IMG/VR virus record: IMGVR_UViG_3300010370_003901
Coordinates: 1-25,005 of that record
DNA length: 25,005 bases
DNA from: a virus
Reading direction: 5' to 3' (one strand)
Positions 1,839-23,278 of the stretch are shown piece after piece; the first letter of the stretch is position 1, and each line of letters begins with the position of its first letter. Made by a program: the position numbers and the translations under genes. The notes under the pieces were generated by a model. It ran no database searches and had not been told where the DNA came from. It saw only the letters and a list, made by a program, of their open reading frames with translations.

Positions 1839-2765
1839 ATGAGCATCTTAGTTACTGGTGGAGCAGGATTTATCGGAAGTAATTTTCTTCATCATTTAAT
1901 TAATACAACTGATGAAGAAATTGTTTGTATAGACAAATTAACTTATGCTGGAAATCGTGAAAATGTTCCAAGTCAGGTAAAGATATACATTACTGACATA
2001 GCAAATAGAGAAAGTTGCGATCGGGTTTTTTCAAAGCATAAGATTAAAACCGTATTTCATTTGGCAGCAGAAAGTCACGTAGATAACTCAATAAAAGATT
2101 GTTCTCAATTTATTCATAGTAATATTAATGGGACGGTTAATCTTTTAAATTTATCATTGAGGTATGAGATTGATAAATTTATCCATATTTCCACTGATGA
2201 AGTGTATGGATCAATTGACTGGGGATCCTTTACTGAGAGTTCAAATTACAATCCTCGCAATCCATATTCCGCATCAAAAGCTGCATCTGATCATTTTGTA
2301 ATGGCGTATTATAACACCTATGGGTTGCCAATTAATATTACTAATTGTTCCAATAACTATGGACCAAGACAATACAAGGAAAAGTTTATCCCCCAGATAA
2401 TTTTAAATGCCCTTTCAAACAAAAAGATTCCTGTGTATGGTGATGGTTTGCAAGTACGTGATTGGTTATATGTTCAGGATCATTGTGTTGCTTTAACAAA
2501 GGTTTGGAAAAACGGTAAGATAGGTGAAAAGTACAATATAGGTGGTCAGTGTGAAATGACCAATTTAGATCTTGTAAAACAGATTCTTGGTATTATGCAA
2601 AAAGGAGAAGATATGATAGAATATGTTGCCGACAGACCTGGACATGATCGCAGGTATTCAACCAGCATTGAAAAAATAAAAGACAACGTATTCTGGGTTC
2701 CTTCTTATGACATTGGTTATGGATTGCAAAAAACAATTGAGTGGTATGAACGCAATTGGAACTAG
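1839..2765 (+). CDS. rmlB: dTDP-glucose 4,6-dehydratase
   Basis: This enzyme converts dTDP-glucose to dTDP-4-keto-6-deoxyglucose, the branch point for dTDP-6-deoxysugars. It is an extended short-chain dehydrogenase of 308 residues, close to the usual 310-350. It has the NAD-binding TGGAGFIGS (6-14), the dehydratase signature STDEVYG (118-124) with the catalytic Asp-Glu pair, and YSASK (143-147) with the catalytic Tyr and Lys. NNYGPRQ and VRDWLYVQDH are also typical. The next gene (RmlC) starts inside its last 20 bases. The partner that makes dTDP-glucose (RmlA) is not in this window, so that precursor would come from the host or from elsewhere in the phage. A related dehydratase acting on another nucleotide sugar cannot be excluded. 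Confidence 0.9.
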   Translation: MSILVTGGAGFIGSNFLHHLINTTDEEIVCIDKLTYAGNRENVPSQVKIYITDIANRESCDRVFSKHKIKTVFHLAAESHVDNSIKDCSQFIHSNINGTVNLLNLSLRYEIDKFIHISTDEVYGSIDWGSFTESSNYNPRNPYSASKAASDHFVMAYYNTYGLPINITNCSNNYGPRQYKEKFIPQIILNALSNKKIPVYGDGLQVRDWLYVQDHCVALTKVWKNGKIGEKYNIGGQCEMTNLDLVKQILGIMQKGEDMIEYVADRPGHDRRYSTSIEKIKDNVFWVPSYDIGYGLQKTIEWYERNWN

Positions 2766-3282
2766 ATTTCCTGATGTAAATATCATCACTAATAAGGTAC
2801 ATCAAGATGATAGGGGTTCTTTCTTAGAAACGTTCAATCTACGAGAGATTCAAAGAATTATTGGATCATATAACTTTGTTCAAGATTGTTGCTCAATTTC
2901 TAAGAAAAACGTCATTAGAGGTTTGCACTATCAAATTGAACACCCTCAGGGTAAATTGGTCAGATGTATTCGTGGAGAAATCTATGATGTTATCGTTGAT
3001 CTTCGTAGAAGTTCTAAAACTTTTGGTCAATGGACGGGATTTCATCTAGGAACAAGATCTTCTCAACTATGGATTCCACCAGGATTTGCTCATGGGTTTT
3101 CTGTTTTGTCAGATGAAGCCGAAGTTCAATATAAACTTACTGAGTATCGATTCCCAGAATATGAGAGAACATTGGCTTGGAATGATATTAGTTTAGTGAT
3201 TGACTGGGGTGTAGATGATCCTATTATTTCTGATAGGGATTTGAATGGGCAACCATTTATTGAATGCGAAACCTATGAGTAA
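2746..3282 (+). CDS. rmlC: dTDP-4-dehydrorhamnose 3,5-epimerase
   Basis: This is a cupin-fold epimerase acting on the product of the preceding gene, moving it towards L-rhamnose-type sugars. At 178 residues it has the normal family length. Visible signatures are DDRGSFLETF (21-30), RGLHYQ (58-63) with the catalytic His at 61, the following Gln-Gly-Lys of the active site, and PPGFAHGF (111-118). The start is placed at the ATG at 2746, overlapping rmlB by 20 bases. A start at 2707 would add 13 unrelated residues translated from inside rmlB. The close coupling with rmlB supports joint expression. Single-site 3-epimerases share this fold, so the exact stereochemistry is inferred. Confidence 0.9.
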   Translation: MNAIGTRFPDVNIITNKVHQDDRGSFLETFNLREIQRIIGSYNFVQDCCSISKKNVIRGLHYQIEHPQGKLVRCIRGEIYDVIVDLRRSSKTFGQWTGFHLGTRSSQLWIPPGFAHGFSVLSDEAEVQYKLTEYRFPEYERTLAWNDISLVIDWGVDDPIISDRDLNGQPFIECETYE

Positions 3283-4125: not shown

Positions 4126-5199
4126 ATGTCTGAATATACTAAAACAGCCCTTGTTCTTGGTGCTGGTGGATTTATTGGAAGTCACATGGTTAAGAGACTT
4201 CGTGCAGAAGGATACTGGGTGCGAGGAGTAGATCTTAAATACCCAGAGTATTCTGTGAGTGAAGCAAATGAATTTATTCTTGGCGATCTTCGTGATGTAA
4301 ATTTTGTTCATCGATGCATTCGTTTTACTGGATATCTTGGCAACTTTTATAAAAGCATTATAGATAAGTTTGCAGAACCTTTTGATGAAATCTATCAGTT
4401 CGCTGCTGATATGGGTGGTGCAGGTTTCGTCTTTACTGGCGAAAATGATGCAGATATTATGCATAACTCTGTAACTATCAATTTGAATGTTCTTGATGAA
4501 CAACATAAGTTGAATGAAATCAAGGAAGTAAATAAGACTAAGATTTTCTATTCTGGATCTGCTTGCATGTATCCAGAGCACAATCAATTGGATCCCGATA
4601 ACCCCGATTGCCGTGAAGATTCCGCGTATCCCGCAGCACCAGATTCCGAGTATGGATGGGAAAAACTGTTTTCAGAACGCTTGTATCTTGCTTATCACCG
4701 CAATTATGGTATTCCTGTACGCATCGCTCGGTATCACAATATTTACGGACCAGAAGGAACGTGGGACGGCGGTCGTGAAAAAGCCCCAGCAGCAATCTGC
4801 CGAAAAGTAGCATATCTTCCAGATGTTGGCGGGGCAATCGAAGTATGGGGAGATGGGGAACAAACCAGATCATTCCTCTATATTGATGAGTGTCTCGAAG
4901 CAACTCGTCGTCTGATGGATTCTGATTTCATTGGTCCAGTAAATATTGGATCGGAAGAAATGGTTACTATCAATCAACTGGTTGATATTGTTTCTAAGGT
5001 TGGAGGAAAGGCTGTTAATAGAATCCATAAACTGGATGCTCCCCTCGGAGTTCGTGGACGTAATTCTAATAACGATTTGATTCGAGAAAAACTTGATTGG
5101 GATTATAGTATGACGCTCGAACAAGGTATTGAAAAGACATATAATTGGATCCATTCTCAAATTGAAAAACCTTACACACCTTCTTGGCATCCCGTATGA
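4126..5199 (+). CDS. gme: GDP-mannose 3,5-epimerase
   Basis: This enzyme converts GDP-D-mannose to GDP-L-galactose (and GDP-L-gulose), best known from plant vitamin C synthesis. The match runs the whole length (357 residues). LGAGGFIGS (11-19) binds NAD. FAADMGGAG (92-100) and GSACMYPE (144-151) follow, the latter with Cys147 corresponding to the catalytic Cys. YGWEK (176-180) carries the catalytic Tyr/Lys. HNIYGPEGTWDGGREKAP (204-221) contains Lys219, corresponding to the second catalytic residue. WGDGEQTRSF and GVRGRNSNN are also family-specific. Part of the gene is visibly more GC-rich than its neighbours (for example 4590-4660), hinting at a separate origin. It has its own promoter-like sequence and is followed by an overlapping GT11 gene, a likely user of its product. 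Confidence 0.92.
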   Translation: MSEYTKTALVLGAGGFIGSHMVKRLRAEGYWVRGVDLKYPEYSVSEANEFILGDLRDVNFVHRCIRFTGYLGNFYKSIIDKFAEPFDEIYQFAADMGGAGFVFTGENDADIMHNSVTINLNVLDEQHKLNEIKEVNKTKIFYSGSACMYPEHNQLDPDNPDCREDSAYPAAPDSEYGWEKLFSERLYLAYHRNYGIPVRIARYHNIYGPEGTWDGGREKAPAAICRKVAYLPDVGGAIEVWGDGEQTRSFLYIDECLEATRRLMDSDFIGPVNIGSEEMVTINQLVDIVSKVGGKAVNRIHKLDAPLGVRGRNSNNDLIREKLDWDYSMTLEQGIEKTYNWIHSQIEKPYTPSWHPV

Positions 5200-6026
5200 T
5201 TGGATTTAATTACATTGGAAGATTGGGACGTTTGGGAAATCAAATGTTCCAATATGCCGCACTCAGGGGTATATCTGCAAATAGAGGATTTAATTTTTGC
5301 TTTCCATATTATGCTAATGCAGTTGATGATGGAATTGGAAACATGCTCAGAACAGAACTATTTGATTGTTTTGAAATGAGTAGCGTTACAGATCTCAATT
5401 TGCAAAATATAGATTCTGAACGCCCAACAGTAAGTGAAGGTGGATTTGAGTTTAATGAAACTCTTTTCAATGAGTGTCCAGATTGGGTAACTCTTTATGG
5501 GTTCTTTCAAACTGAAAAATACTTTAAAAATGTTGAAGATACTATTCGAAAAGATTTTACCTTTAAGAAAGAAATACTTGACCCATGTAAGGAAATGATG
5601 GGATCTTTTTATTCTGATAATGTAGATCCTACAATTGTTTCTCTTCATATTAGACGTACCGATTATCTTACCAATTCCTGTAATCATACTCCGTTGGGAA
5701 TGGATTACTATGAGAAAGCTCTGTCTGAGTTTCCTGAGGATGCGCCAGTAATTATATTTTCTGATGATCCAACTTGGTGCAAAGAGCAAGAACTTTTTTC
5801 CGATGAAAGGTTTTTAGTCTCTGAAAATACTAGCGGACACATCGATTTGTGTTTGATGAGTCTATGTACAGACTTTATTATTGCTAATAGTACGTTTAGT
5901 TGGTGGGGAGCATGGTTAGCAAATGGTAAGAAAGTCATTGCCCCATCTAAATGGTTTGGTCCAAATAACCAAAACTTAAATACAAAAGACTTATATTTGT
6001 CACACTGGAAAATTATAGGAGAGTAA
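5196..6026 (+). CDS. GT11 family glycosyltransferase (alpha-1,2-fucosyltransferase-like)
   Basis: GT11 enzymes move L-fucose from GDP-fucose to the 2-hydroxyl of galactose. This 276-residue protein has the family signatures in order: GRLGNQMFQYAAL (11-23), HIRRTDY (151-157, the GDP-binding HxRRxD motif), FSDDPTWC (188-195) and IIANSTFSWWGAWL (228-241). The ATG at 5196 overlaps the stop of the GDP-mannose 3,5-epimerase gene (ATGA). No GDP-fucose synthase (WcaG type) is evident nearby, whereas the coupled upstream gene yields GDP-L-galactose, which is L-fucose with an extra 6-hydroxyl. The donor here may therefore be GDP-L-galactose; this is inference. An FkbM methyltransferase and a GT6 follow. 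Confidence 0.9.
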   Translation: MIGFNYIGRLGRLGNQMFQYAALRGISANRGFNFCFPYYANAVDDGIGNMLRTELFDCFEMSSVTDLNLQNIDSERPTVSEGGFEFNETLFNECPDWVTLYGFFQTEKYFKNVEDTIRKDFTFKKEILDPCKEMMGSFYSDNVDPTIVSLHIRRTDYLTNSCNHTPLGMDYYEKALSEFPEDAPVIIFSDDPTWCKEQELFSDERFLVSENTSGHIDLCLMSLCTDFIIANSTFSWWGAWLANGKKVIAPSKWFGPNNQNLNTKDLYLSHWKIIGE

Positions 6027-6027
6027 A

Positions 6028-6651
6028 ATGCCTAGTTCATTAGATGCACATATTTCAGAAACTGAAATAGAATGGTCAACCATCGATTACTTCAAAAAAG
6101 TAGTTCAATTTTTGAAATCAAGAGAAATTAAAACTGTATTAGATGTTGGTGGATGCACTGGTCAAGTTTCAGTCATGCTTCTTCATGAGATTCCTTCGAT
6201 TGAAAAAGTTACTATTCTTGAACCAGTGTTAGAAAATTATAATTTTATTGTAGATCGAGCAAAGAGTGCAGATTCTGCGAAAGTTGAAGTCCTTAATAAG
6301 GCTCTCTTTTATGGAGAGACTCACATCAAACTTGGTCAATGTGACAGTAACGTTGGTGGTTGGAGTTTCAAACACACTGGAAATCAAACTAATGAAGTAG
6401 AAACAACTACTTTGGAAGATTTTTCTGATATTGATTTTGCAAAAATTGATATTGAAGGTGCGGAGTTGAATGTAATTCCAGAATCAACTTACATCAATGA
6501 TATTCCATACTTAGAAGTTGAATTTCATGATGAACTTATGACATCATGGAAAACTTTTGTTGGTAAACATCTAAAAAACCATAAGGTTAAATTTGAAGGA
6601 AATCCAGACAGACCTCAAAATGTTTTCTTAGTGCGGAAGGATCTATACTAA
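6028..6651 (+). CDS. FkbM family SAM-dependent methyltransferase
   Basis: This is a class I methyltransferase of 207 residues, probably O-methylating a sugar of the glycan. Motif I is LDVGGCTGQVS near residues 40-50. The acidic motif ILEPV follows, then an FkbM-type DFAKIDIEGAELNVI near residue 138. A good Shine-Dalgarno sequence (AGGAGA just before 6028) supports the start. It lies between the GT11 and GT6 transferase genes with almost no spacing and ends in TAATG, shared with the GT6 start. It may therefore methylate the sugar added by one of those two enzymes. A second FkbM-type gene is at 18298. The acceptor is not predictable from sequence. Confidence 0.85.
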   Translation: MPSSLDAHISETEIEWSTIDYFKKVVQFLKSREIKTVLDVGGCTGQVSVMLLHEIPSIEKVTILEPVLENYNFIVDRAKSADSAKVEVLNKALFYGETHIKLGQCDSNVGGWSFKHTGNQTNEVETTTLEDFSDIDFAKIDIEGAELNVIPESTYINDIPYLEVEFHDELMTSWKTFVGKHLKNHKVKFEGNPDRPQNVFLVRKDLY

Positions 6652-7376
6652 TGAGACTAGCAGACTTAGCAGTTGTCTTTATTGGCACAAACAAATACTT
6701 AAATTTTCTCCCAACCTGGCATGAGTCTTGTGAAAAGTATCTTGCCCCAGGTCATAAGAAACAGTATTTTGTTTTTACTGATGGCGAATTGGAAGGAATT
6801 CCTGATAACATCACACCTTATTATCAGGAACATCTCTCTTGGCCTTACATTACACTGTATAGGTTTGGTACAATTTTGAGAGCAAAAGATGAATTAGAAA
6901 AATTTGATTATGTTCTCTTTTTGGATGCTGACATGCGTGTGGTTAATACCATAAGTGGAAATGAGATTTTTTCCAATAAGAAGTATATTGGTGTGAGGCA
7001 TCCATGCCACTTCATGCAGATGCCACCTCATGACAGGCACCCAGGTGCCTTCGAGACGCGACAAGAATCCACCGCAGGGATCGTTGAGGGTGACGATACT
7101 TCTATCTACTTTCAGGGGTGTCTGTGGGGTGGTAGAGTGCCTGATGTGATTGACATGATGGAAGAATTGGATCGTCGTACAAAGGATGATGAATCGCGGG
7201 ATGTGATTGCTGTATGGCATGATGAAAGTCAAATGAACAAGTTCTTTGCAGAAAGACCTGACGATGTTCATGTTCTTGGTCCATCTTATGCTTACCCAGA
7301 AATCTTTGCACAATATTGCAACTTCGAACCAAAAATTGTACATCTAGCAAAAGATAATTCTCAATATCAGCAATGA
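6651..7376 (+). CDS. GT6 family glycosyltransferase (ABO blood-group transferase-like)
   Basis: GT6 includes the human ABO transferases and alpha-1,3-galactosyltransferase, which add Gal or GalNAc with retention to a galactose. This 241-residue protein is essentially the catalytic domain only. It has KKQYFVFTDG (36-45), FLDADMRV (90-97) with a DXD metal motif at 92-94, RHPGAFETRQES (129-140), YFQGCLWGG (153-161) and AVWHDESQMNKFF (187-199); the WHDE segment is diagnostic. Many bacterial GT6 enzymes carry NXN in place of DXD, whereas this one keeps DXD like the vertebrate enzymes. There is no membrane anchor. A GC-rich patch with a 7-bp inverted repeat (7035-7050) stands out from the AT-rich surroundings. 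It is coupled by one-base overlap to the FkbM gene. Confidence 0.88.
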   Translation: MRLADLAVVFIGTNKYLNFLPTWHESCEKYLAPGHKKQYFVFTDGELEGIPDNITPYYQEHLSWPYITLYRFGTILRAKDELEKFDYVLFLDADMRVVNTISGNEIFSNKKYIGVRHPCHFMQMPPHDRHPGAFETRQESTAGIVEGDDTSIYFQGCLWGGRVPDVIDMMEELDRRTKDDESRDVIAVWHDESQMNKFFAERPDDVHVLGPSYAYPEIFAQYCNFEPKIVHLAKDNSQYQQ

Positions 7377-12621: not shown

Positions 12622-13641
12622 ATGTCAAAAGTTGTTTTTGCGAAAGCACCTCTGCGTCTGGGATTGGCTGGCGGTGGAACTGATCTTGAACCATATCGAA
12701 AAGAATATGGTGGAGTTGTTCTGAGTGGAACAATAGATCAGTATGCATATTGCAAAGTTGAACCTTGGGATGATTGGTGCTTTAAGAGCGTTGATTTGGA
12801 CCTAGAAGAGACTCATACTTTCTATGAGTCTATTGACTGCTCTACTTCATTAAAACTCCTCATAACCCCCTACAAGCACCTTATGGATGGGTGTGGTCAA
12901 AGGACACCCATTAAGATCACCACATACGTTGAGGCACCTCCTGGTAGTGGATTGGGAAGTTCTAGTGCTTTGGTTGTTGCAGTTGTGTCTGCTCTTTGCG
13001 AGTATCATAACTTGCCAAAGGATGAGTATGAGATTGCAAATCTTGCGGTTCATGTTGAAAGAAACTTATGCGAACTTCCAGGTGGATTGCAAGATCAGTA
13101 CTCTGCTTCTTTTGGTGGATTCAATTACATTGAGTTTTTGGAAAGTGGAAGAACAATTGTGAATCCACTTCGATTGAATTATAAAATCCAAAATATGTTG
13201 GAACTTAACACAGTTCTATACTATGTTGGAACTCCTCGAAAAGATGCTCACGTCATTGATGCAACTTCTGAGAATCTCAGAAATAACAAATCAACTTTGG
13301 AAGCCACGCATAAAATCAAAGATGCTTGTGTTGAGTTTAAACAAAGTTTGTTAGTTGGAGATGTGAAGAAAATTTCTGATTTGATGAATGAGTATTGGAC
13401 TCATAAACTTAAAACAAGTAGCAAAGTTGCTAACGCTAAGATGTTAGATGTCTATGACTTTGCTATGAAAAATGGTGCAACTGCTGCTAAAATATCTGGT
13501 GCTGGTGGTGGCGGGCATATGATCTTCTTTACGGATTTTGAACGGAGGCACAAACTACTAACAGCACTTAAAGAAATTCCAGATGGAAGAGTAGTTCCTT
13601 TTAAATTTGTTAAACATGGAGTAGACGTTTGGAGACAATGA
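12622..13641 (+). CDS. hddA: D-glycero-D-manno-heptose 7-phosphate kinase-like GHMP kinase
   Basis: HddA phosphorylates D,D-heptose 7-phosphate at C1 to give the 1,7-bisphosphate, on the route to GDP-D,D-heptose. This 339-residue protein has the GHMP kinase motifs in order: APLRLGLAGGGTDLEPY (9-25), PPGSGLGSSSALVVA (106-120, the ATP-binding loop) and ISGAGGGGHMIFF near residue 291. CELPGGLQDQYSASFGG carries the Asp region of the active site. The PLRLGLAGGGTD start is characteristic of the heptose/fucokinase branch rather than galactokinase. The HddC-like gene lies at 15910, three genes downstream. The earlier isomerase (GmhA) and a dedicated phosphatase (GmhB) are not seen in this window. Confidence 0.85.
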   Translation: MSKVVFAKAPLRLGLAGGGTDLEPYRKEYGGVVLSGTIDQYAYCKVEPWDDWCFKSVDLDLEETHTFYESIDCSTSLKLLITPYKHLMDGCGQRTPIKITTYVEAPPGSGLGSSSALVVAVVSALCEYHNLPKDEYEIANLAVHVERNLCELPGGLQDQYSASFGGFNYIEFLESGRTIVNPLRLNYKIQNMLELNTVLYYVGTPRKDAHVIDATSENLRNNKSTLEATHKIKDACVEFKQSLLVGDVKKISDLMNEYWTHKLKTSSKVANAKMLDVYDFAMKNGATAAKISGAGGGGHMIFFTDFERRHKLLTALKEIPDGRVVPFKFVKHGVDVWRQ

Positions 13642-13642
13642 T

Positions 13643-14794
13643 ATGAAAAATACTTTATTAGACTTGGGAACACAACCTCTGGTAAATAATTTGTGTTCTT
13701 CCAGAGAGGAGTCGTTGAGTGCTAAGAGATATCCACTCAGGGCAGAATATGAAGATGATATGACAATTCATCTTGATACTGAAATTCCTCCTGATATTCT
13801 CTACAAAAATTATCTCTATCACAGTGGAGTAAGTAAACCTTACATCGAACACTGTAAGTCAATGTTTGATAGCATTAAACATTTAAACATGGATGTTGTT
13901 ATTGATGTTGGTGGTAATGATGGAACTCTCTTAAAAACATTCAAAGGTCAACCAAACAGCATCAAGAGATTTATCAATGTTGATGCCAGTGAGAGTTTCA
14001 AGGAAGAAAATGAAAGGGATGGTATTGAGTATGTTTGCGGTTTCTTTAATGATGAAATCGATCTTCCACAGGCAAACGTTATTACTTCAACCAACGTTTT
14101 TCAACACACTGCAAACATTCGTTCTTTTGTAAAAGGAGTCCGAAAGCACTTGGCGAAAGATGGTGTATGGGTTCTTGAATTTCCGTATACATTTACAACT
14201 CTTTTGACCTTACAATTTGATCAGTTTTATCATGAACATTATTATTACTGGTTATTGATTCCTTTGCAAAAAATGTTCCATGAATACGGATTGAAAATTG
14301 TGAATATTTCAGAACAAAATATTCATGGTGGAACTATGAGACTCTGGATGGCAAGAGAAGACTCTAAGATTCCAGTAGCAAAGGATCTTGAAACTTATAA
14401 AATGGAAGAGATCAAACTTGATCTTTCTTCTTTTGATAGTAAGGTTAAAAACTATATCAATAAGTCAAGAGAGTTTATTTTAAAGTTTCCTGGTAGAACT
14501 GCGTTTTTTGGAGCAGCAGCGAAGGGTTGTGTGTTTCTAAATGCTCTTGATCTTTCAGTGTTGAATATGTCCGACTCATATGTGATTGATGACACTATTG
14601 AAAAGCAAGGGATGTTTGTTCCAGGAACTGGATTTGAAATTTGCAGTAGAGAACAGTTAAAAGAGCAACCAGTGGATAATATTATTATCTTAGCTCATAA
14701 CTTTAAAGATCATATCATTAAGTCTCTTAGAAAATCTAACTTTACTGGGAACATTATTACGATGCTCCCTAGTCTCGAAGTAGATCTCGTTTGA
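13643..14794 (+). CDS. sugar C-methyltransferase family protein, zinc site lost
   Basis: This 383-residue protein resembles the TylC3/TcaB9 sugar C-methyltransferases, which methylate a ring carbon of nucleotide 4-keto sugars using SAM. It has VIDVGGNDGT (86-95) for SAM binding, FDQFYHEHYYYW (192-203) with the catalytic YHEH, and a C-terminal half with FFGAAAKGCVFLNAL and a GMFVPGTGFEI segment, as in the family. The N-terminal zinc-binding domain is altered: the protein starts at LDLGTQPLVNN, without the leading CxxC, and the second CxxC position is occupied by EYEDDMTIHL (35-44). A possible substrate is a dTDP- or GDP-4-keto sugar made by the RmlB or 16542 enzymes. The stop codon lies within the next promoter. 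Confidence 0.82.
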   Translation: MKNTLLDLGTQPLVNNLCSSREESLSAKRYPLRAEYEDDMTIHLDTEIPPDILYKNYLYHSGVSKPYIEHCKSMFDSIKHLNMDVVIDVGGNDGTLLKTFKGQPNSIKRFINVDASESFKEENERDGIEYVCGFFNDEIDLPQANVITSTNVFQHTANIRSFVKGVRKHLAKDGVWVLEFPYTFTTLLTLQFDQFYHEHYYYWLLIPLQKMFHEYGLKIVNISEQNIHGGTMRLWMAREDSKIPVAKDLETYKMEEIKLDLSSFDSKVKNYINKSREFILKFPGRTAFFGAAAKGCVFLNALDLSVLNMSDSYVIDDTIEKQGMFVPGTGFEICSREQLKEQPVDNIIILAHNFKDHIIKSLRKSNFTGNIITMLPSLEVDLV

Positions 14795-15542: not shown

Positions 15543-15941
15543 ATGGAAAGATTGAGCGATAGTTTTCTTCAAAAAACAATTGAGTTACCTCAGAAAAATC
15601 AAGAAATTCATCCAAAGGGTTGGGGATATGAAAACTGGATTGTAAACAATTCTCAGTATTGTGGAAAGGTTCTTTTCTTTGAGGCTGGTAAGAAGTGTTC
15701 CTGGCACTATCACAAAATTAAAGACGAAACCTTCTACATTCAGAGTGGATCTATTATGCTCACATATGGTGAGGATGATGATATCACAAAAGCAAGTCAA
15801 GTCATTTTAGATAAAGGTGACAGATTTCATGTTTATCCAGGTCTTAGGCATCAAATGCAAGCCTATGAGGATACTGAACTAATTGAATTTTCTACACAAC
15901 ATTTTGAGGATGATAGTTACAGAGTTATCAAAGGGGATTAA
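15543..15941 (+). CDS. cupin-domain protein, possible sugar isomerase or epimerase
   Basis: This single-domain cupin has 132 residues. The metal-binding set is visible as His55, His57 and Glu62 in SWHYHKIKDETFYIQSG (53-69) and His103 in YPGLRHQM. It opens with KGWGYENWIVNN, as in type II mannose-6-phosphate isomerase and GDP-mannose-associated cupins. It lies between a methyltransferase and the HddC-like gene, which overlaps its last 32 bases. A role in heptose or mannose-type sugar phosphate chemistry is therefore likely but unproven. No Shine-Dalgarno sequence is obvious before the ATG at 15543, so translation may be coupled to the preceding stop. Confidence 0.7.
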   Translation: MERLSDSFLQKTIELPQKNQEIHPKGWGYENWIVNNSQYCGKVLFFEAGKKCSWHYHKIKDETFYIQSGSIMLTYGEDDDITKASQVILDKGDRFHVYPGLRHQMQAYEDTELIEFSTQHFEDDSYRVIKGD

Positions 15942-16557
15942 ACTATATCTGCTTGTTGGAGGAAAGGGAACAAGACTTTCCTCCGTTACAAATGGAATTC
16001 CCAAACCGTTGGTTGATGTATGCGGTAAACCATTCATCACTAGGATGATTGAAAACCTTTCTGGGTTTGATATTACTCTTGTTTGTTCTGATTTAAATTA
16101 TCATTTCTTTCAGGACTTAGGTGTTGATGTTTTTAATGAAGGTGAATTATCTGGAACTGGTGGATTTCTTTCAAAAGTAAATCTGCCAGAGTCTTTTTAT
16201 GTTATGAATGGAGACACTTTTTATTCTGGCGACCTAAACTTGGATTGTACTGAGTCAACCATTTTTGTCAAAAAGGAAAAAGTAACTGGGGATGAAGGGT
16301 ACATTATTGAAAAGGATGGTAGAGTTGATTGCTACGTCGAAAAAAATATCTTTGCTGCTGGTGAAACTCACCTAGTAAATCTAGGAATTTACAAGTTTTA
16401 TAAAAAAGATTTGTATCTACCAAATAGATTTCCTATTAGCATAGAGTATGATATACTGAATGAAATAGACTTGTCATACAAAGTTTTAGATACTGATAGA
16501 TTTGACATTGGAACCCCAGAAAGATTGGAGAGATTTAGAGAATGGTTCAATATTTAA
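15910..16557 (+). CDS. hddC: D-glycero-D-manno-heptose 1-phosphate guanylyltransferase-like
   Basis: HddC makes GDP-D,D-heptose from GTP and heptose 1-phosphate. This 215-residue protein has LLVGGKGTRLSS near residue 13 (nucleotide-binding loop), IPKPLVDVCGKPF, MNGDTFYSGDL (metal-binding Asp region) and a FDIGTPERLERFREW C-terminus close to the HddC ending. Both length and pattern separate it from the longer mannose-1-phosphate guanylyltransferases. The start is uncertain. The ATG at 15910 lies 32 bases inside the cupin gene and gives about ten residues before the core; an in-frame TTG at 15883 is weaker. It forms a module with the HddA-like kinase (12622) and the dehydratase/reductase at 16542. 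Confidence 0.8.
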   Translation: MIVTELSKGIKLYLLVGGKGTRLSSVTNGIPKPLVDVCGKPFITRMIENLSGFDITLVCSDLNYHFFQDLGVDVFNEGELSGTGGFLSKVNLPESFYVMNGDTFYSGDLNLDCTESTIFVKKEKVTGDEGYIIEKDGRVDCYVEKNIFAAGETHLVNLGIYKFYKKDLYLPNRFPISIEYDILNEIDLSYKVLDTDRFDIGTPERLERFREWFNI

Positions 16558-17456
16558 TTACAGGTGCCGCTGGAATGATGGGGACTCATCTTTATGAGTC
16601 CCTTAAAACTCGTGGATGTGATGTCTTAGCAACATATTATCATCCAACCATTGATAAAAGAGATCCAATTCTTCAAGATCTGGAACAGAATCATGTTGAG
16701 TTGAATTTACTTTCTGCTGTACAAACTGAGAATATTATCACCAAATATAAACCAAAGGTGATATATCATCTAGCTGCTCAGAGTAGACCAGATGTATCTT
16801 TTAGTCATGTCAAGTATACTCTTGAAACAAACATTATAGGAACTTGTAATCTATTAGAAGCATGTAGAAAACTTGATTACAAACCTTTGATTGTTAATGC
16901 TTCCTCTTCTGCTGTTTATGGAGACATTGACTGGTCAACTCCTCCCGATGAAAAATCATCAACTTATCCCATTTCCCCATACGGAACAAGTAAACTTGCA
17001 CAGGAAAACCTTGTAAGGAACTATCATGAAATGGGTGAAATTGATTATGTAAATGTTCGGATATTTAATTGTACTGGACCAAGAAAGAAGAATGATTTGA
17101 TTTCTGACATTTGCCAAAGAGTTGTATTTGATAATGGGTTAATTCCAGTTGGAAATTTGGAGACTATTCGCACTATTGTTGATGTTAGAGATCTAATTGA
17201 AGGATTGATTCTCTGTTCCGATATTAAAAATACTACAATCAATCTTGGAGGAACTAAAACTTATAAGTGTTCTGAGATTGTTGAAAAGATTATTGGCGAT
17301 AGAAAAACCTATACAGAGCCAGAGTTTTTCCGTCCTACCGACGAGAAGATTATTTGGGGAAACATAAATAAAGCGAGGACTTGGTTAGAGTGGGAACCAA
17401 AGATAACCATAGACCAAACTATTAGTGATACACTTGATTATTGGAGATCTTTGTAA
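16542..17456 (+). CDS. GDP-mannose 4,6-dehydratase / GDP-6-deoxy-4-keto sugar reductase-like
   Basis: This is an extended short-chain dehydrogenase of 304 residues. It has ITGAAGMMGTHL (6-17) for cofactor binding, HLAAQSRPDVSF, ASSSAVYGD, YGTSK with the catalytic Tyr/Lys, and RIFNCTGPRK, which resembles the RxFNHxGPRQ of Rmd/Gmd enzymes. It also has RTIVDVRDLIEGL. The gene overlaps the HddC-like gene by 16 bases, so its likely substrate is the GDP-heptose made there. In Yersinia a dehydratase of this type (DmhA) turns GDP-heptose into a 6-deoxy-4-keto intermediate, and reductases of this type complete the 6-deoxyheptose. Whether this enzyme is the dehydratase or the reductase cannot be told from sequence alone. 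Confidence 0.75.
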   Translation: MVQYLITGAAGMMGTHLYESLKTRGCDVLATYYHPTIDKRDPILQDLEQNHVELNLLSAVQTENIITKYKPKVIYHLAAQSRPDVSFSHVKYTLETNIIGTCNLLEACRKLDYKPLIVNASSSAVYGDIDWSTPPDEKSSTYPISPYGTSKLAQENLVRNYHEMGEIDYVNVRIFNCTGPRKKNDLISDICQRVVFDNGLIPVGNLETIRTIVDVRDLIEGLILCSDIKNTTINLGGTKTYKCSEIVEKIIGDRKTYTEPEFFRPTDEKIIWGNINKARTWLEWEPKITIDQTISDTLDYWRSL

Positions 17457-18301
17457 TGTCAAAAACCACATTTGGATATATTGTCGGAGGAGACGATAAG
17501 TATTACACTAACCTTATGAGGTCTTTGAAATCTCTGGAAGAGAGAGTAAAAAATCCATATGAGGTTTTAATCATTGACATGGATGGAAGATTCTATTCAG
17601 ATGAATCTAATATTAAAGTTGTAAATGAAAGTGTAGATAAAGTTGATAATGGTGGGGATGAACTCAACCGAAATTGGTTACAACCTCACATCTGGGCAAA
17701 GCGGTATGAACTTTACAAGTATCTAGAAACCGACTATTGTTTCTACATGGACGTTGATACTGTCTTAATCAATGATAGAACAGAGGAATTGATTGAAGAG
17801 TCTGAGGATAACTTCATGTTGGCTCAACACTGGTGGGTTCCAACACTTAATTCTTTCCTATCTAATGTTAGAGTTGATCTATCAAAGGTATCTCCATTTC
17901 TACCACCATCTGGTGTAGAATATTTCTATGGAGCTTCTGGATGTTTTCTTTTCAAGAAAGATTCTCACAATCATATTTTTGAAAAGTATCAAGAAATCTA
18001 TAAAGAGATTCATGGTGATGGTTCTGCTCCCATGAATGTAACTGATGAACTTATTTTGTGTTTGTCTTTCAATCAATTTGATGATTGGAAGTTTACAAAT
18101 GGTGCAATGAACCACACTGCTCATCCAAAATCAATGCCACTAAAAAAAGAAGATGGTGTTTGGTTTGGTAAAAACTCATATGAAGAAGAATTCAAACCTG
18201 TTTTCGTTTTTCATAGTTCGTATGAATATCTTCATACACTCGATTCAGAATATCTTGAAGACATCAAAAAAGAAATGTACTGGGAGGAATTTCATCCATG
18301 A
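17456..18301 (+). CDS. GT-A glycosyltransferase (GT8-like)
   Basis: This 281-residue protein begins with a Rossmann-like strand, TFGYIVGGDDKYY (5-17). CFYMDVDTVLI (95-105) has a clear DxD at 99-101 for metal and nucleotide-sugar binding. YFYGASGCFLFKK and VTDELILCLSF resemble the acceptor and catalytic segments of retaining GT8/GT6-type enzymes, so it could be distantly related to the GT6 at 6651. The ATG at 17456 shares one base with the stop of the previous gene (TAATG). The donor and acceptor are unknown. Its place after the heptose module could mean it transfers that sugar, but retaining heptosyltransferases of this type are not well established. Confidence 0.65.
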   Translation: MSKTTFGYIVGGDDKYYTNLMRSLKSLEERVKNPYEVLIIDMDGRFYSDESNIKVVNESVDKVDNGGDELNRNWLQPHIWAKRYELYKYLETDYCFYMDVDTVLINDRTEELIEESEDNFMLAQHWWVPTLNSFLSNVRVDLSKVSPFLPPSGVEYFYGASGCFLFKKDSHNHIFEKYQEIYKEIHGDGSAPMNVTDELILCLSFNQFDDWKFTNGAMNHTAHPKSMPLKKEDGVWFGKNSYEEEFKPVFVFHSSYEYLHTLDSEYLEDIKKEMYWEEFHP

Positions 18302-18999
18302 ACTTTAATGGAATTAGAGATCTTGTAAATCCAAAAACCGTAATTGATATTGGAGCAAACACTGGATGGTTTGCTTCTTGTTTGGGTCAGGTATGTCCTA
18401 ATGTGGATATTACAATGATTGAAGCGAATCCAAACTGTGAAGAGAAGTTATCGCAAGTTGGATATTCCTACGCCATTGCTGCTCTTTCAAATCAGGCAAA
18501 AGAAAAAGTAAAATTTTATATTAATAAGGATGATTTAGTTTGTTGTGGAGCTTCTTTGTATAAAGAAGATACCAAATTTTATGAAGACTGTGTTGAGATT
18601 GAAGTGGAAACTCATACCCTTGATGAAGTTGAATTGTATTCTGATGGAGTTGATCTTCTAAAAATTGATGTTCAGGGATCTGAAAAAGATATTCTTGAAG
18701 GTGCAACGGAGACTTTGAAAAGAACCAAGAATATTCTTCTCGAATGCTCTTTCTCAAACTTTAATGTGGGTTCACCTCAAATTGAAGAAATTATGGAATT
18801 TACGAAGGATCTTGGGTTTTATCCTAGGGCAATTCTTGAAGAGCACTGGTCGAGACCTGGTGTAGATCTTCCCGTAAAAGTAGTTCATCAAATTGATGTT
18901 CTCTTTTCTAAGATTACGAGTGACTCTTATTCTTCTTGTGAGAACTATATTTCAACATACCGAAAACTCTATGATGAAGCAATGTCTGCTGTAAAATAA
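18298..18999 (+). CDS. FkbM family SAM-dependent methyltransferase
   Basis: This is the second FkbM-type methyltransferase of the island (233 residues). TVIDIGANTGWFAS (14-27) is motif I, MIEANP carries the ribose-binding acidic residue, and DLLKIDVQGSEKDIL is the FkbM-specific stretch. It differs considerably from the gene at 6028, so the two are probably separate acquisitions with different targets. Start and stop are tightly joined to its neighbours (ATGA at 18298; one-base gap before 19001). It probably methylates a sugar hydroxyl of the finished or growing glycan. Confidence 0.85.
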   Translation: MNFNGIRDLVNPKTVIDIGANTGWFASCLGQVCPNVDITMIEANPNCEEKLSQVGYSYAIAALSNQAKEKVKFYINKDDLVCCGASLYKEDTKFYEDCVEIEVETHTLDEVELYSDGVDLLKIDVQGSEKDILEGATETLKRTKNILLECSFSNFNVGSPQIEEIMEFTKDLGFYPRAILEEHWSRPGVDLPVKVVHQIDVLFSKITSDSYSSCENYISTYRKLYDEAMSAVK

Positions 19000-22099: not shown

Positions 22100-22390
22100 A
22101 TGGCATACAATGTTACTCTCCGCTCTCCCGATGGAACTGAAACGACTATTCAGTGTGAAGGGGATCAGTACATCCTTGAAGCAGCAGAGGAAGCGGGTGT
22201 TGACCTCCCTTCGTCGTGTAAAGCAGGCGCTTGCTCGGCTTGTGCAGGAAAACTCATCTCTGGCACCGTAGATAATGAAGAGCAATCGTTCCTTGATGAT
22301 GACCAAATTGCAGAAGGTTGGGTGCTGACTTGTGTAGCATATCCCACTAGCGATTGTGTAATCCTCACTGAACAGGAAGAGAATCTGTGA
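22100..22390 (+). CDS. petF: plant-type 2Fe-2S ferredoxin
   Basis: This 96-residue ferredoxin has the cluster ligands Cys40, Cys45, Cys48 and Cys78, in the patterns CKAGACSAC and LTCVAYP of photosynthetic ferredoxins. It carries electrons from photosystem I to acceptors such as FNR, thioredoxin reductase or bilin reductases. There is no targeting peptide, as expected in a cyanobacterial cytosol. It lies between hli-type genes behind the promoter at 21736. Phage ferredoxins may feed electrons to phage bilin reductases or nucleotide reduction; which applies here cannot be told. The following gene begins with GTG overlapping its stop. Confidence 0.95.
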
Positions 22391-22599
22391 GTGCTAATAT
22401 GCTTGGGCAATTTAATGTTGCCCTTCAAGAATTGGTTGAGAGTGGTGCCTGGGATCGAGATGTAGAACTAGAAGTCAAGATCGCTGGTACTCTTAAAAAC
22501 GATAAGTTTATCGTAATTAAACCTATCAAAGAAAAACTGGTTTGTAATCCAAATCCAGATCTTAAACAAAAACATTCTTATCAAGGAGAAAAAAAATGA
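22387..22599 (+). CDS. small protein of unknown function next to ferredoxin
   Basis: This 70-residue soluble protein reads as an amphipathic helix ([18 protein letters not shown]), then a beta-rich middle ([21 protein letters not shown]) and a basic, polar tail. I recognise no family. The GTG at 22387 overlaps the ferredoxin stop (GTGA); an ATG at 22399 is an alternative that removes four residues. Its stop overlaps the next hli start, and a strong Shine-Dalgarno sequence for that gene (AAGGAG, 22583-22588) lies within its last codons. Its tight link to petF suggests a redox or photosynthetic helper, but this is only context. Confidence 0.65.
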
Positions 22600-22703
22600 A
22601 CGAACGCGCAGAACGTATTAATGGATGGGCAGCAATGATTGGTATTGTTGCCGCAATGGGTAGCTATGCTGCCACTGGTCAAATTATTCCTGGTATTTGG
22701 TGA
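22596..22703 (+). CDS. hli: very short high-light-inducible protein
   Basis: This 35-residue protein reads [20 protein letters not shown] at its start and is almost only the Hli membrane helix. The consensus AExxNGRxAMxG appears as AERINGWAAMIG, with Arg replaced by Trp at the position that forms an intramolecular salt bridge and helps bind chlorophyll in the family. A strong Shine-Dalgarno AAGGAG lies at 22583-22588, seven bases before the ATG. It is encoded between an unknown gene and peroxiredoxin. It might act in a heterodimer with the full-length Hli at 21791; this is an inference. Confidence 0.85.
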   Translation: MNERAERINGWAAMIGIVAAMGSYAATGQIIPGIW

Positions 22704-22740
22704 TTATGCTTCGCAATATTATTCGACGTAAAAAAACTAC

Positions 22741-22745
22741 GGAGG
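22741..22745 (+). promoter_or_regulatory. Shine-Dalgarno site fixing the peroxiredoxin start
   Basis: GGAGG at 22741-22745 lies five bases before the ATG at 22751. No comparable site precedes the alternative upstream ATG at 22706. This favours the shorter 175-residue peroxiredoxin. Confidence 0.65.
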
Positions 22746-22750
22746 TTCCT

Positions 22751-23278
22751 ATGCGTAAAGAAGGATATCAAGTTCCTCAGGTGGAATTTGTGTTCAGGGA
22801 GTCTGGCGAATTTGTAAATCGTACATCTTCGGAACTTTTCGATGGAAAGCGTGTTGTCATTTTTAGTTTGCCTGGTGCTTTCACTCCTACTTGCAGTGCC
22901 TATCAGCTACCTGGATTCGAAGAGAAATATGACGACTTTATTGGTCTCGGCATCGACGCTATTTACTGCATCTCTGTTAATGATGGGTTTGTGATGAATG
23001 CCTGGGCACAAGATCAAAACATCGAAAAAATTACCTTAGTACCCGATGGAAATGCTTACTTCACCCGCTCTATGGGTTATTTGGTCAACAAGTCTAACCT
23101 TGGTTTCGGTCTTCGTTCTTGGCGTTATGCTGCTGTGGTGGACAACGGAATCATCGAAAAACTATTCGTTGAAGAAGGTTTACGTGACAACGCAGACACA
23201 GACCCCTACGAGGTATCAACACCCGAGGCAGTACTAGAATACGTTGCATCCAAAGTTAAAGTTGGAGCAACAGTCTGA
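22751..23278 (+). CDS. type II (Prx5-like) peroxiredoxin
   Basis: This enzyme reduces hydrogen peroxide and alkyl hydroperoxides by a reactive cysteine. The 175-residue form has PGAFTPTCSAYQLPGF (41-56) with the peroxidatic Cys48, and a second Cys at 73 (YCISVND), 25 residues later, the spacing seen in plant type II peroxiredoxins. WAQDQ, TLVPDGNAYFTRSMG and GFGLRSWRYAAVVDNG follow the family pattern. The start at 22751 is chosen for its GGAGG site; 22706 would add a basic 15-residue extension. It ends the photosynthesis cassette, just before a terminator. It would protect the infected cell from oxidative stress under light, using thioredoxin or glutaredoxin from the host or phage. Confidence 0.9.
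   Translation: MRKEGYQVPQVEFVFRESGEFVNRTSSELFDGKRVVIFSLPGAFTPTCSAYQLPGFEEKYDDFIGLGIDAIYCISVNDGFVMNAWAQDQNIEKITLVPDGNAYFTRSMGYLVNKSNLGFGLRSWRYAAVVDNGIIEKLFVEEGLRDNADTDPYEVSTPEAVLEYVASKVKVGATV

Follow-up and report, generated by a model that had tools for sequence, protein, structure and literature searches.

The virus record IMGVR_UViG_3300010370_003901 was analysed as one stretch of 25,005 bases (a 25-kb fragment, here called the window), the forward strand of which carries a long series of nucleotide-sugar and glycosyltransferase genes. Its sequence identifies the source as a T4-like cyanophage, a virus of ocean cyanobacteria. DNA is shared with 32 phage records, all of them titled Cyanophage, Synechococcus, Prochlorococcus or marine virus, the best of which covers approximately 5% of the window, and at the DNA level the window is related to T4-like cyanophages, Bellamy and S-SM2 among them. 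Within the series we examined a GT11-family and a GT6-family glycosyltransferase gene which the first-pass annotation had read, with an FkbM-type methyltransferase gene between them, as a tightly coupled unit for ABO-type antigens. All three genes gave clear family matches, and their ends overlap or almost touch at each junction (Table 1). Read directly, the GT11/FkbM junction is TAAaATG, the FkbM/GT6 junction is TAATG and the junction of GT6 with the next gene is ATGA. Left unnamed in the earlier finding was the gene immediately upstream, which shares a 4-bp ATGA overlap with GT11 (start ATG at 5196) and is identified by its matches as a GDP-mannose 3,5-epimerase (GME). Published papers are cited below by PubMed Central number, each for the passages of it used here.

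Table 1. Genes of the GT11-GT6 region in the window, and the alternative donor genes of a related phage.
Feature	Predicted role or remark	Location	Strand	Basis
GDP-mannose 3,5-epimerase (GME)	predicted GDP-L-galactose source for GT11	4126..5199	+	PDB matches, shared stretches
GT11-family glycosyltransferase	fucosyltransferase-like, predicted to add an L-galacto sugar	5196..6026	+	PF01531, AF2 model, HIRRTD
FkbM-family methyltransferase	lineage-specific gene in the GT11-GT6 slot	6028..6651	+	TIGR01444
GT6-family glycosyltransferase	ABO/alpha-1,3-Gal(NAc)-transferase-like, DXD motif	6651..7376	+	PF03414, AF2 model
GMD, Fcl-like reductase and ColD-like 3-dehydratase in a row	likely GDP-L-colitose pathway	L094 (Synechococcus phage ACG-2014f) 3474-6591		

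The GT11 protein scored 98.8 bits with its family profile PF01531 (cut-off 23.9, E 4.5e-28), and its AlphaFold 2 (AF2) model had a predicted local distance difference test score (pLDDT) of 93.2. The 43 best structure matches of this model were GDP-fucose transferases, with Z of 13.9 for POFUT1, 13.4 for NodZ, 13.0 for Arabidopsis FUT1 (AtFUT1) and 12.5 for FUT8; GT9 heptosyltransferase-type proteins came next, at Z of 10.4 or less. No solved GT11 structure was found by sequence search at E up to 1 and no GT11 entry was recognised among the structure matches, although one may be among them; the matches are at fold level only. HIRRTD is visible in the translation, and H148, R150, R151 and D153 are invariant in the GT11 alignment; we take HxRRxD to be the donor motif of the family. 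The family call is thus borne out, with a fold of the GDP-fucose transferase type. The first-pass annotation had gone further and deduced alpha-1,2 transfer onto galactose from GT11 membership, but HhFT2, of the same family, has alpha-1,3-fucosyltransferase activity (PMC4202792), so that membership alone does not fix this linkage.

The GT6 protein likewise passed its profile PF03414, with 78.8 bits where 25 are required (E 4e-22). For the narrower NCBIfam model NF041524 (family 6 glucosyltransferase) the E value was 1.1e-53 but the score of 182 bits lay under the cut-off of 250, and the protein was therefore filed in GT6 only, outside that subfamily. BoGT6a (E 8.7e-25) and the ABO transferases (best E 9e-17) are the solved proteins closest to it in sequence. 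The AF2 model (pLDDT 94.1) matched BoGT6a (4ayj) with Z 31.6 and a root-mean-square deviation of 1.6 A over 222 residues at 32% identity, human ABO transferase (4frq) with Z 28.0 at 24% identity, and alpha-1,3-galactosyltransferase with Z 27.1, in agreement with the earlier family call. The GT-A fold, the DXD motif and the catalytic-Glu region WHDE are all present in model and alignment. We aligned 50 GT6 sequences, 34 from phages and 16 from cellular genomes, and mapped the UDP-GalNAc contact positions tabulated for BoGT6a (PMC3961637) onto the window protein by our own pairwise alignment. T13, Y16, T68, R71, G156, W189, H190, D191 and E192 were kept in 50 of 50 sequences, W64 and H117 in 49, and positions 67 and 141 were variable. 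The DXD motif took the form DAD in all 34 phage proteins, and among the 16 cellular ones 10 had NXN and 6 had DAD. Since DXD accompanies metal dependence in this family (PMC3961637), the phage enzymes are predicted to need Mn2+ or Mg2+. A reading of the donor from the positions that decide between A and B activity was tried and given up: equated by eye with ABO positions 266 and 268, the window residues are Gln155 and Cys157, which fit neither GTA nor GTB (Leu/Met266, Gly/Ala268). A simple hydropathy scan found no hydrophobic segment above our chosen threshold in the phage GT6.

The best PDB match of the gene that overlaps GT11 was Arabidopsis GME (2c59, E 2.5e-83), and the best GDP-fucose synthase reached 4.7e-18. 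The window protein and the Arabidopsis enzyme have the stretches SACxYPE, YGxEK, GGREKAPAA and GVRGRNS in common, the first three of which are presumably catalytic stretches, and the gene in the same position in five named phages is 65-81% identical. GME converts GDP-mannose to GDP-L-galactose, and L-galactose is L-fucose with an added 6-hydroxyl; the Arabidopsis alpha-1,2-fucosyltransferase transfers L-galactose, and other fucosyltransferases accept GDP-L-galactose (PMC8787198). The first sugar had been called fucose-like in the first-pass annotation. It would indeed be of the L-galacto type, but the donor is here probably GDP-L-galactose made by the overlapping GME and not GDP-fucose. Of the window proteins, 20 were scanned, and no match to GMD or Fcl was over cut-off. 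As far as tested, then, no GDP-fucose source accompanies the pair, and the system is better said to work like the ABO pathway than to be it.

Conservation of the pair was assessed in viral and cellular loci. Two scans and the window gave 88 viral GT6 loci, which formed 52 clusters at 95% identity; each scan retained its 80 best matches, out of at least 567 (viral GT6), at least 594, 297 and 226 (cellular GT6), and so favours sequences close to its query. Genes were called at our own thresholds (GT11 60, GT6 60, GME 300, Fcl 200, GMD 400, ColD 250 and FkbM 150 bits, the last lowered to 30 in the distant clade described below), distances were taken between stop-to-stop frames, and flanks extended to at most 8 or 10 kb, many contigs being shorter. 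In 51 of the 52 viral clusters a same-strand GT11 was found no more than 2 kb from GT6 (upstream in 46, downstream in 5), and in 39 the distance was 100 bp or less; in the sole miss, L130, the contig stops 167 bp beyond GT6. With a random open reading frame (ORF) of at least 150 amino acids in the same loci as the null, the expectation for 51 clusters is 7.3 at up to 100 bp and 18.6 at up to 2 kb, against 39 and 51 observed. Chance neighbourhood was rejected by this comparison, in which shared ancestry is not corrected for. A more distant phage clade, found with the GT6 of P-SSM2 (80 loci in 47 clusters), carried GT11 in the locus in 39 clusters (flanks up to 10 kb) and within 3 kb in 25. GT6 was present in 71 phage records, and all ten named records examined carry GT11 with it; the rest, mostly ACG-2014f isolates plus jumbo, faecal and DSL-LC03 records, were left out. 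Among 80 cellular GT6 loci, one titled archaeon, GT11 was in the locus in 51, within 2 kb in 38 and within 100 bp in 25. The pair is thus conserved across cyanophage genera and is found in cellular loci too. The best-scoring cellular GT6 (39% identity, among the best 80 of 226 matches) is that of L177, a Candidatus Omnitrophota metagenome-assembled genome (JAQTPE010000045.1, 1001-2599), where a GT11 frame lies approximately 4 bp from GT6; the phage pair may have a cellular relative here.

The association runs in one direction. GT6 without GT11 is rare, and GT11 without GT6 is common: 47 of the 80 loci from the GT11 scan had no GT6 in view, and although many of these are short, 20 of the 47 are in loci of at least 15 kb. 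GT6 therefore leans on GT11 and the reverse does not hold, as one would expect if GT6 acts second and caps the GT11 product. Two or more GT11 genes were seen in 37 of these 47 loci. In two viral loci (L128, 5083-6759; L134, 4902-6602; Pfam run on both) a single ORF codes for a GT4-type glycosyltransferase with GT6 fused to its end, a further sign that adjoining transfer steps belong together. Long GT6 frames also occur in L130, L131, L135-L139 and L141. In this whole group GT11 lies downstream where the contig continues.

The methyltransferase gene does not share this conservation. Its product passed the FkbM family test (TIGR01444, E 9.6e-17, 61.8 bits against a cut-off of 37.7). Among the viral loci examined it recurs only in L010, as judged with a hidden Markov model built from this single protein, which distant FkbM proteins would escape. 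L010 carries an 86% GT11 relative on a contig that ends short of GT6. In 39 of the 52 viral clusters GT11 and GT6 abut, with a slot too small for a gene. Wide slots hold one to three genes, namely an SDR (short-chain dehydrogenase/reductase) epimerase in L020 and its kin and elsewhere genes that have no Pfam match or are unclassified, some of them methyltransferase-like by eye. In P-SSM2 the slot holds an annotated methyltransferase that is likewise unclassified. FkbM was accordingly rejected as part of the conserved unit, the conserved order being GT11-GT6 and not the GT11-FkbM-GT6 proposed earlier. O-methylation, which the first-pass annotation had offered as part of the product, is at most lineage-specific, and may occur in the lineage of the window and L010. 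A second, stronger FkbM methyltransferase lies in the window at 18298-18999 (PF05050, E 1.7e-17).

Donor genes upstream of the pair were counted in 43 of the 52 viral clusters, those with GT11 present and at least 4 kb upstream; eight with less than 4 kb were left out, as was L130. GME was found in 23, GMD with Fcl in 15, neither in 5, and GME and Fcl together in none. Two of the GME clusters, L124 and L140, also carry a GMD-like gene. In the 47 clusters of the distant clade Fcl was found in 19, GME in 3 and both in none. In nine named phage records, of which S-8S53 is titled partial and the other eight complete, GT11 and GT6 were each matched once. Five of these (Bellamy, S-8S53, S-CAM9, S-PRM1 and MITS9220M01) have GME at 518-641 bits, no GMD over cut-off and only Fcl matches of 110 bits or less. 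ACG-2014f, DSL-LC02 and P-SSM2 have GMD over cut-off, Fcl at 422-462 bits (under the cut-off of 500) and no GME, and in the B23 phage record GME, GMD and Fcl were all not found. ACG-2014f further carries a ColD-like dehydratase, annotated as hypothetical in its record, whose best match is ColD (2gms, E 6.6e-51) and which has His-His at the usual Lys site. Aminotransferases carry Lys where the ColD-type enzyme has His, so that GDP-colitose is the likely product in this phage (Table 1). ColD-like genes were also seen in GT11 loci that lack GT6 (L036, L040, L042, L048, L054, L058 and L079), each of which has two or three GT11 genes.

Whether pair or cassette had been exchanged was read from GT11 trees. 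Our careful tree held 47 GT11s, namely L010 and the GT6-linked sequences whose donor label lay no more than 1.2 kb away, with the single ColD row left out; it was made after a quick tree was known, for which 212 GT11s had been merged to 140. In the 47-GT11 tree the Fcl-linked proteins do not form one clade (approximately unbiased test, p-AU 0.014), and well-supported branches force at least two changes of donor cassette. The window's own clade of seven rows (support 97/92) contains four GME and three Fcl members. The quick tree gave three cassette changes, ColD included. It is thus the cassette that was exchanged, and not the pair.

We read the window as one version of a conserved cyanophage cassette for an ABO-like branched unit in which L-galactose replaces fucose, and we put the probability of this reading at about one half. 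In the pathway that we infer from the gene families, folds and kept catalytic residues, together with the conserved linkage and the cassette swaps, GME would convert GDP-mannose to GDP-L-galactose, which GT11 would use as its donor. GT11 would put the L-galacto sugar, most likely in alpha-1,2 linkage, on a galactose-type residue, as a fucosyltransferase does with GDP-fucose, and GT6, as a metal-dependent retaining enzyme, would add Gal, GalNAc or the sugar of another UDP donor in alpha-1,3 linkage to the same residue. The first sugar would be interchangeable among phages while the pair stays constant: L-galactose from GME, L-fucose from GMD and Fcl, and probably L-colitose from GMD, the ColD-like enzyme and an epimerase/reductase, all three being L-galacto sugars. 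More tentatively, we suggest a modular ABO-like system in which a fixed GT11-GT6 pair is served by an exchangeable donor cassette, so that lineages could switch the epitope that the virus makes; the window GT11 might then be a natural alpha-L-galactosyltransferase that makes an L-galactose analogue of the H antigen, capped by GT6. The first-pass interpretation is thus partly supported, in its families and in the conservation of the pair, and is corrected in its deduction of the linkage from the family, its donor, its role for FkbM and its gene order.

Several observations weigh against this reading. The pathway is a prediction from sequence and models. We did not find GT11 residues that clearly follow the donor type when 33 GME-linked and 18 Fcl-linked representatives from two clades were compared; the candidates were weak and none was used. 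GT6 alone is absent from the window's own clade except in the edge-cut L130 (52 clusters), but 8 of the 47 distant-clade clusters have no GT11 in the locus, some with almost full flanks (e.g. L297 and L306), and in L334 of that clade GT11 sits on the opposite strand; 29 of the 80 cellular GT6 loci show no GT11 either. The occurrence of either gene alone, to which the first-pass annotation had drawn attention, is therefore seen for GT11 commonly and for GT6 outside the window's own clade. As for the donor, GME also forms GDP-L-gulose, and the S-SCSM1 genome holds GMD, Fcl, GME and GT11 together (PMC9602691). GME and Fcl also occur together in two GT11-only loci, L042 and L077, so their exclusivity is not absolute. 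In the 47-GT11 tree L093 and L004 have long branches, L004 being an Fcl row of the window's clade. The independent swaps are few, and the large pairing counts are not counts of independent events. A rule of one GT11 per donor cassette was considered and dropped: two GT11s go with two cassettes in L042 and L077, but elsewhere there are several loci in which two GT11s come with a single visible cassette or none.

GDP-fucose could nevertheless reach GT11. As the window is a 25-kb fragment, GMD and Fcl could lie outside it, the host may supply GDP-fucose, and other glycosyltransferases of the window could be the users of GDP-L-galactose, in which case the product would be a normal H/A/B-like one and GME would serve another transferase. 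The GT11 enzymes of known activity in PMC4202792 are fucosyltransferases, the fold of the GT11 model matches GDP-fucose enzymes, and GMD with Fcl stands beside the pair in 15 of the 43 scorable relatives. We consider this unlikely, given the scan of the 20 window proteins, the five GME-type phages with their lack of GMD and low Fcl matches, the overlap of GME with GT11, and the way GME and Fcl substitute for one another wherever either is seen (38 of 43 clusters). The two transferases might also contribute to the same glycan on different residues, for example with GT11 acting in alpha-1,3 linkage elsewhere and GT6 extending a linear chain, and the product would then not be ABO-like. HhFT2 offers a precedent, as does the alpha-1,3-galactosyltransferase of the GT6 family, a strong match of our model, which acts on unfucosylated Gal (PMC4202792), and the two genes are often separated by several kb in the distant clade. 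The near-obligate adjacency in the main clade and the one-way dependence of GT6 on GT11 make such an arrangement improbable, as do the precedents of E. coli O86 and of BoGT6a with fucosyl-lactose (PMC4202792). It is least probable, and indeed hardly to be expected, that the pair has no common substrate and reflects only the exchange of genes in blocks between cyanophage sugar clusters. Such clusters are gene-rich and mosaic, the slot holds varied genes and GT11 alone is common, but the excess of pairs within 100 bp over the null speaks against it, and the pair turns up again in cellular genomes and in both phage GT6 clades, which are distant from each other.

The rest of the sugar cluster bears on where the glycan would go. 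A simple hydropathy scan found no convincing membrane segment in the sugar-cluster genes between 1286 and 21722, with a single peak of 1.63 in the kinase at 12622-13641, so that no flippase, polymerase or membrane-bound initiating transferase is seen in the window. If such machinery is not supplied by genes elsewhere in the phage genome, which is possible, we infer that the phage must use the lipid-linked machinery of the host or modify a cytosolic target, e.g. a virion protein. In ACG-2014f a tail-fibre gene follows the sugar cluster, with a few small genes between. For genes of this kind a surface change that blocks other phages has been guessed (PMC9602691). A dTDP-glucose 4,6-dehydratase (TIGR01181) and RmlC (TIGR01221), both over cut-off, lie at 1839-3282, a dTDP-rhamnose-type route beside GME. 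The window also has an apparent route to GDP-D-glycero-D-manno-heptose, which would be the second unusual nucleotide sugar of this phage cluster (genes at 12622-13641, 15883-16557, 16542-17456 and 13643-14794). It comprises an HddA-like kinase (NF049969, E 3.3e-86) and an HddC-like guanosyltransferase (NF049965, E 7.1e-17), both below cut-off, together with a sugar C-methyltransferase (PF08484) and an SDR of GMD/LegB type, which also falls below its cut-offs. Right after the cluster, at 22100-23278, are a ferredoxin (PF00111) and a peroxiredoxin (PF08534), and the same are annotated in DSL-LC02.

The sugar clusters of marine phages are large and their products obscure, and a near-invariant pair with alternative cassettes provides a small, concrete hypothesis about one such product. 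If it is true, a virus would diversify a glycan epitope by changing donor supply alone, and a natural L-galactosyltransferase could be added to GT11 and a new type of donor site to GT6. The GT11-GT6 partnership behind the blood groups recurs in phages and in cellular genomes.

Parts of this picture were already known, namely phage GT6, the GT11-GT6 pair of O86 and cyanophage GME. Phage database records already label some such genes GT6 and GT11, and GT6 in "two cyanophages", whose names are absent from the passage concerned, was in print by 2014 (PMC3961637). A literature search outside subscription papers, mostly at the level of title and abstract, did not find the GT11-GT6 pair in cyanophages, its near-obligate linkage or the donor swap. 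S-SCSM1 resembles the window in having GME and GT11 in one cyanophage, with GDP-L-galactose named; the term "gt6" is absent from the text of that paper, and neither the pair nor the cassette swap was found in the portion used (PMC9602691). One 20-kb stretch of P-SSM2 holds a phage GT6 together with GT11, GMD and Fcl, but the P-SSM2 GT6 is 30% identical to that of the window, the GT11 lies approximately 1.4 kb off, and the cassette is that for fucose, with no GME. BoGT6a of Bacteroides ovatus, the closest solved structure, has the Thr, Tyr, Trp, Arg, His and Trp-His-Asp-Glu positions in common with the window GT6; it is, however, an NXN, metal-free enzyme (PMC3961637), whereas all 34 phage proteins have DAD, and the window has Gln and Cys at the A/B positions. 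Human GTA and GTB share the GT-A fold, DXD and catalytic Glu with the window GT6, but differ from it in identity (24%), in their donor positions (Leu/Met266, Gly/Ala268) and in that the phage protein has no hydrophobic segment over threshold. WbgN, the colitosyltransferase of E. coli O55, is presumably a GT11 member. It is an alpha-1,2 enzyme with an L-fucose-like donor, as proposed for ACG-2014f, and it uses GDP-colitose and tolerates GDP-fucose (PMC12723683). E. coli O86 makes a bacterial O-antigen with fucose, whereas the window pairs GT11 with GME, its product and acceptor being predictions; like the window, it combines a GT11 with a GT6, WbwK and WbnI being paired there for the B antigen, with Gal alpha1-3[Fuc alpha1-2]Gal as the product (PMC4202792).

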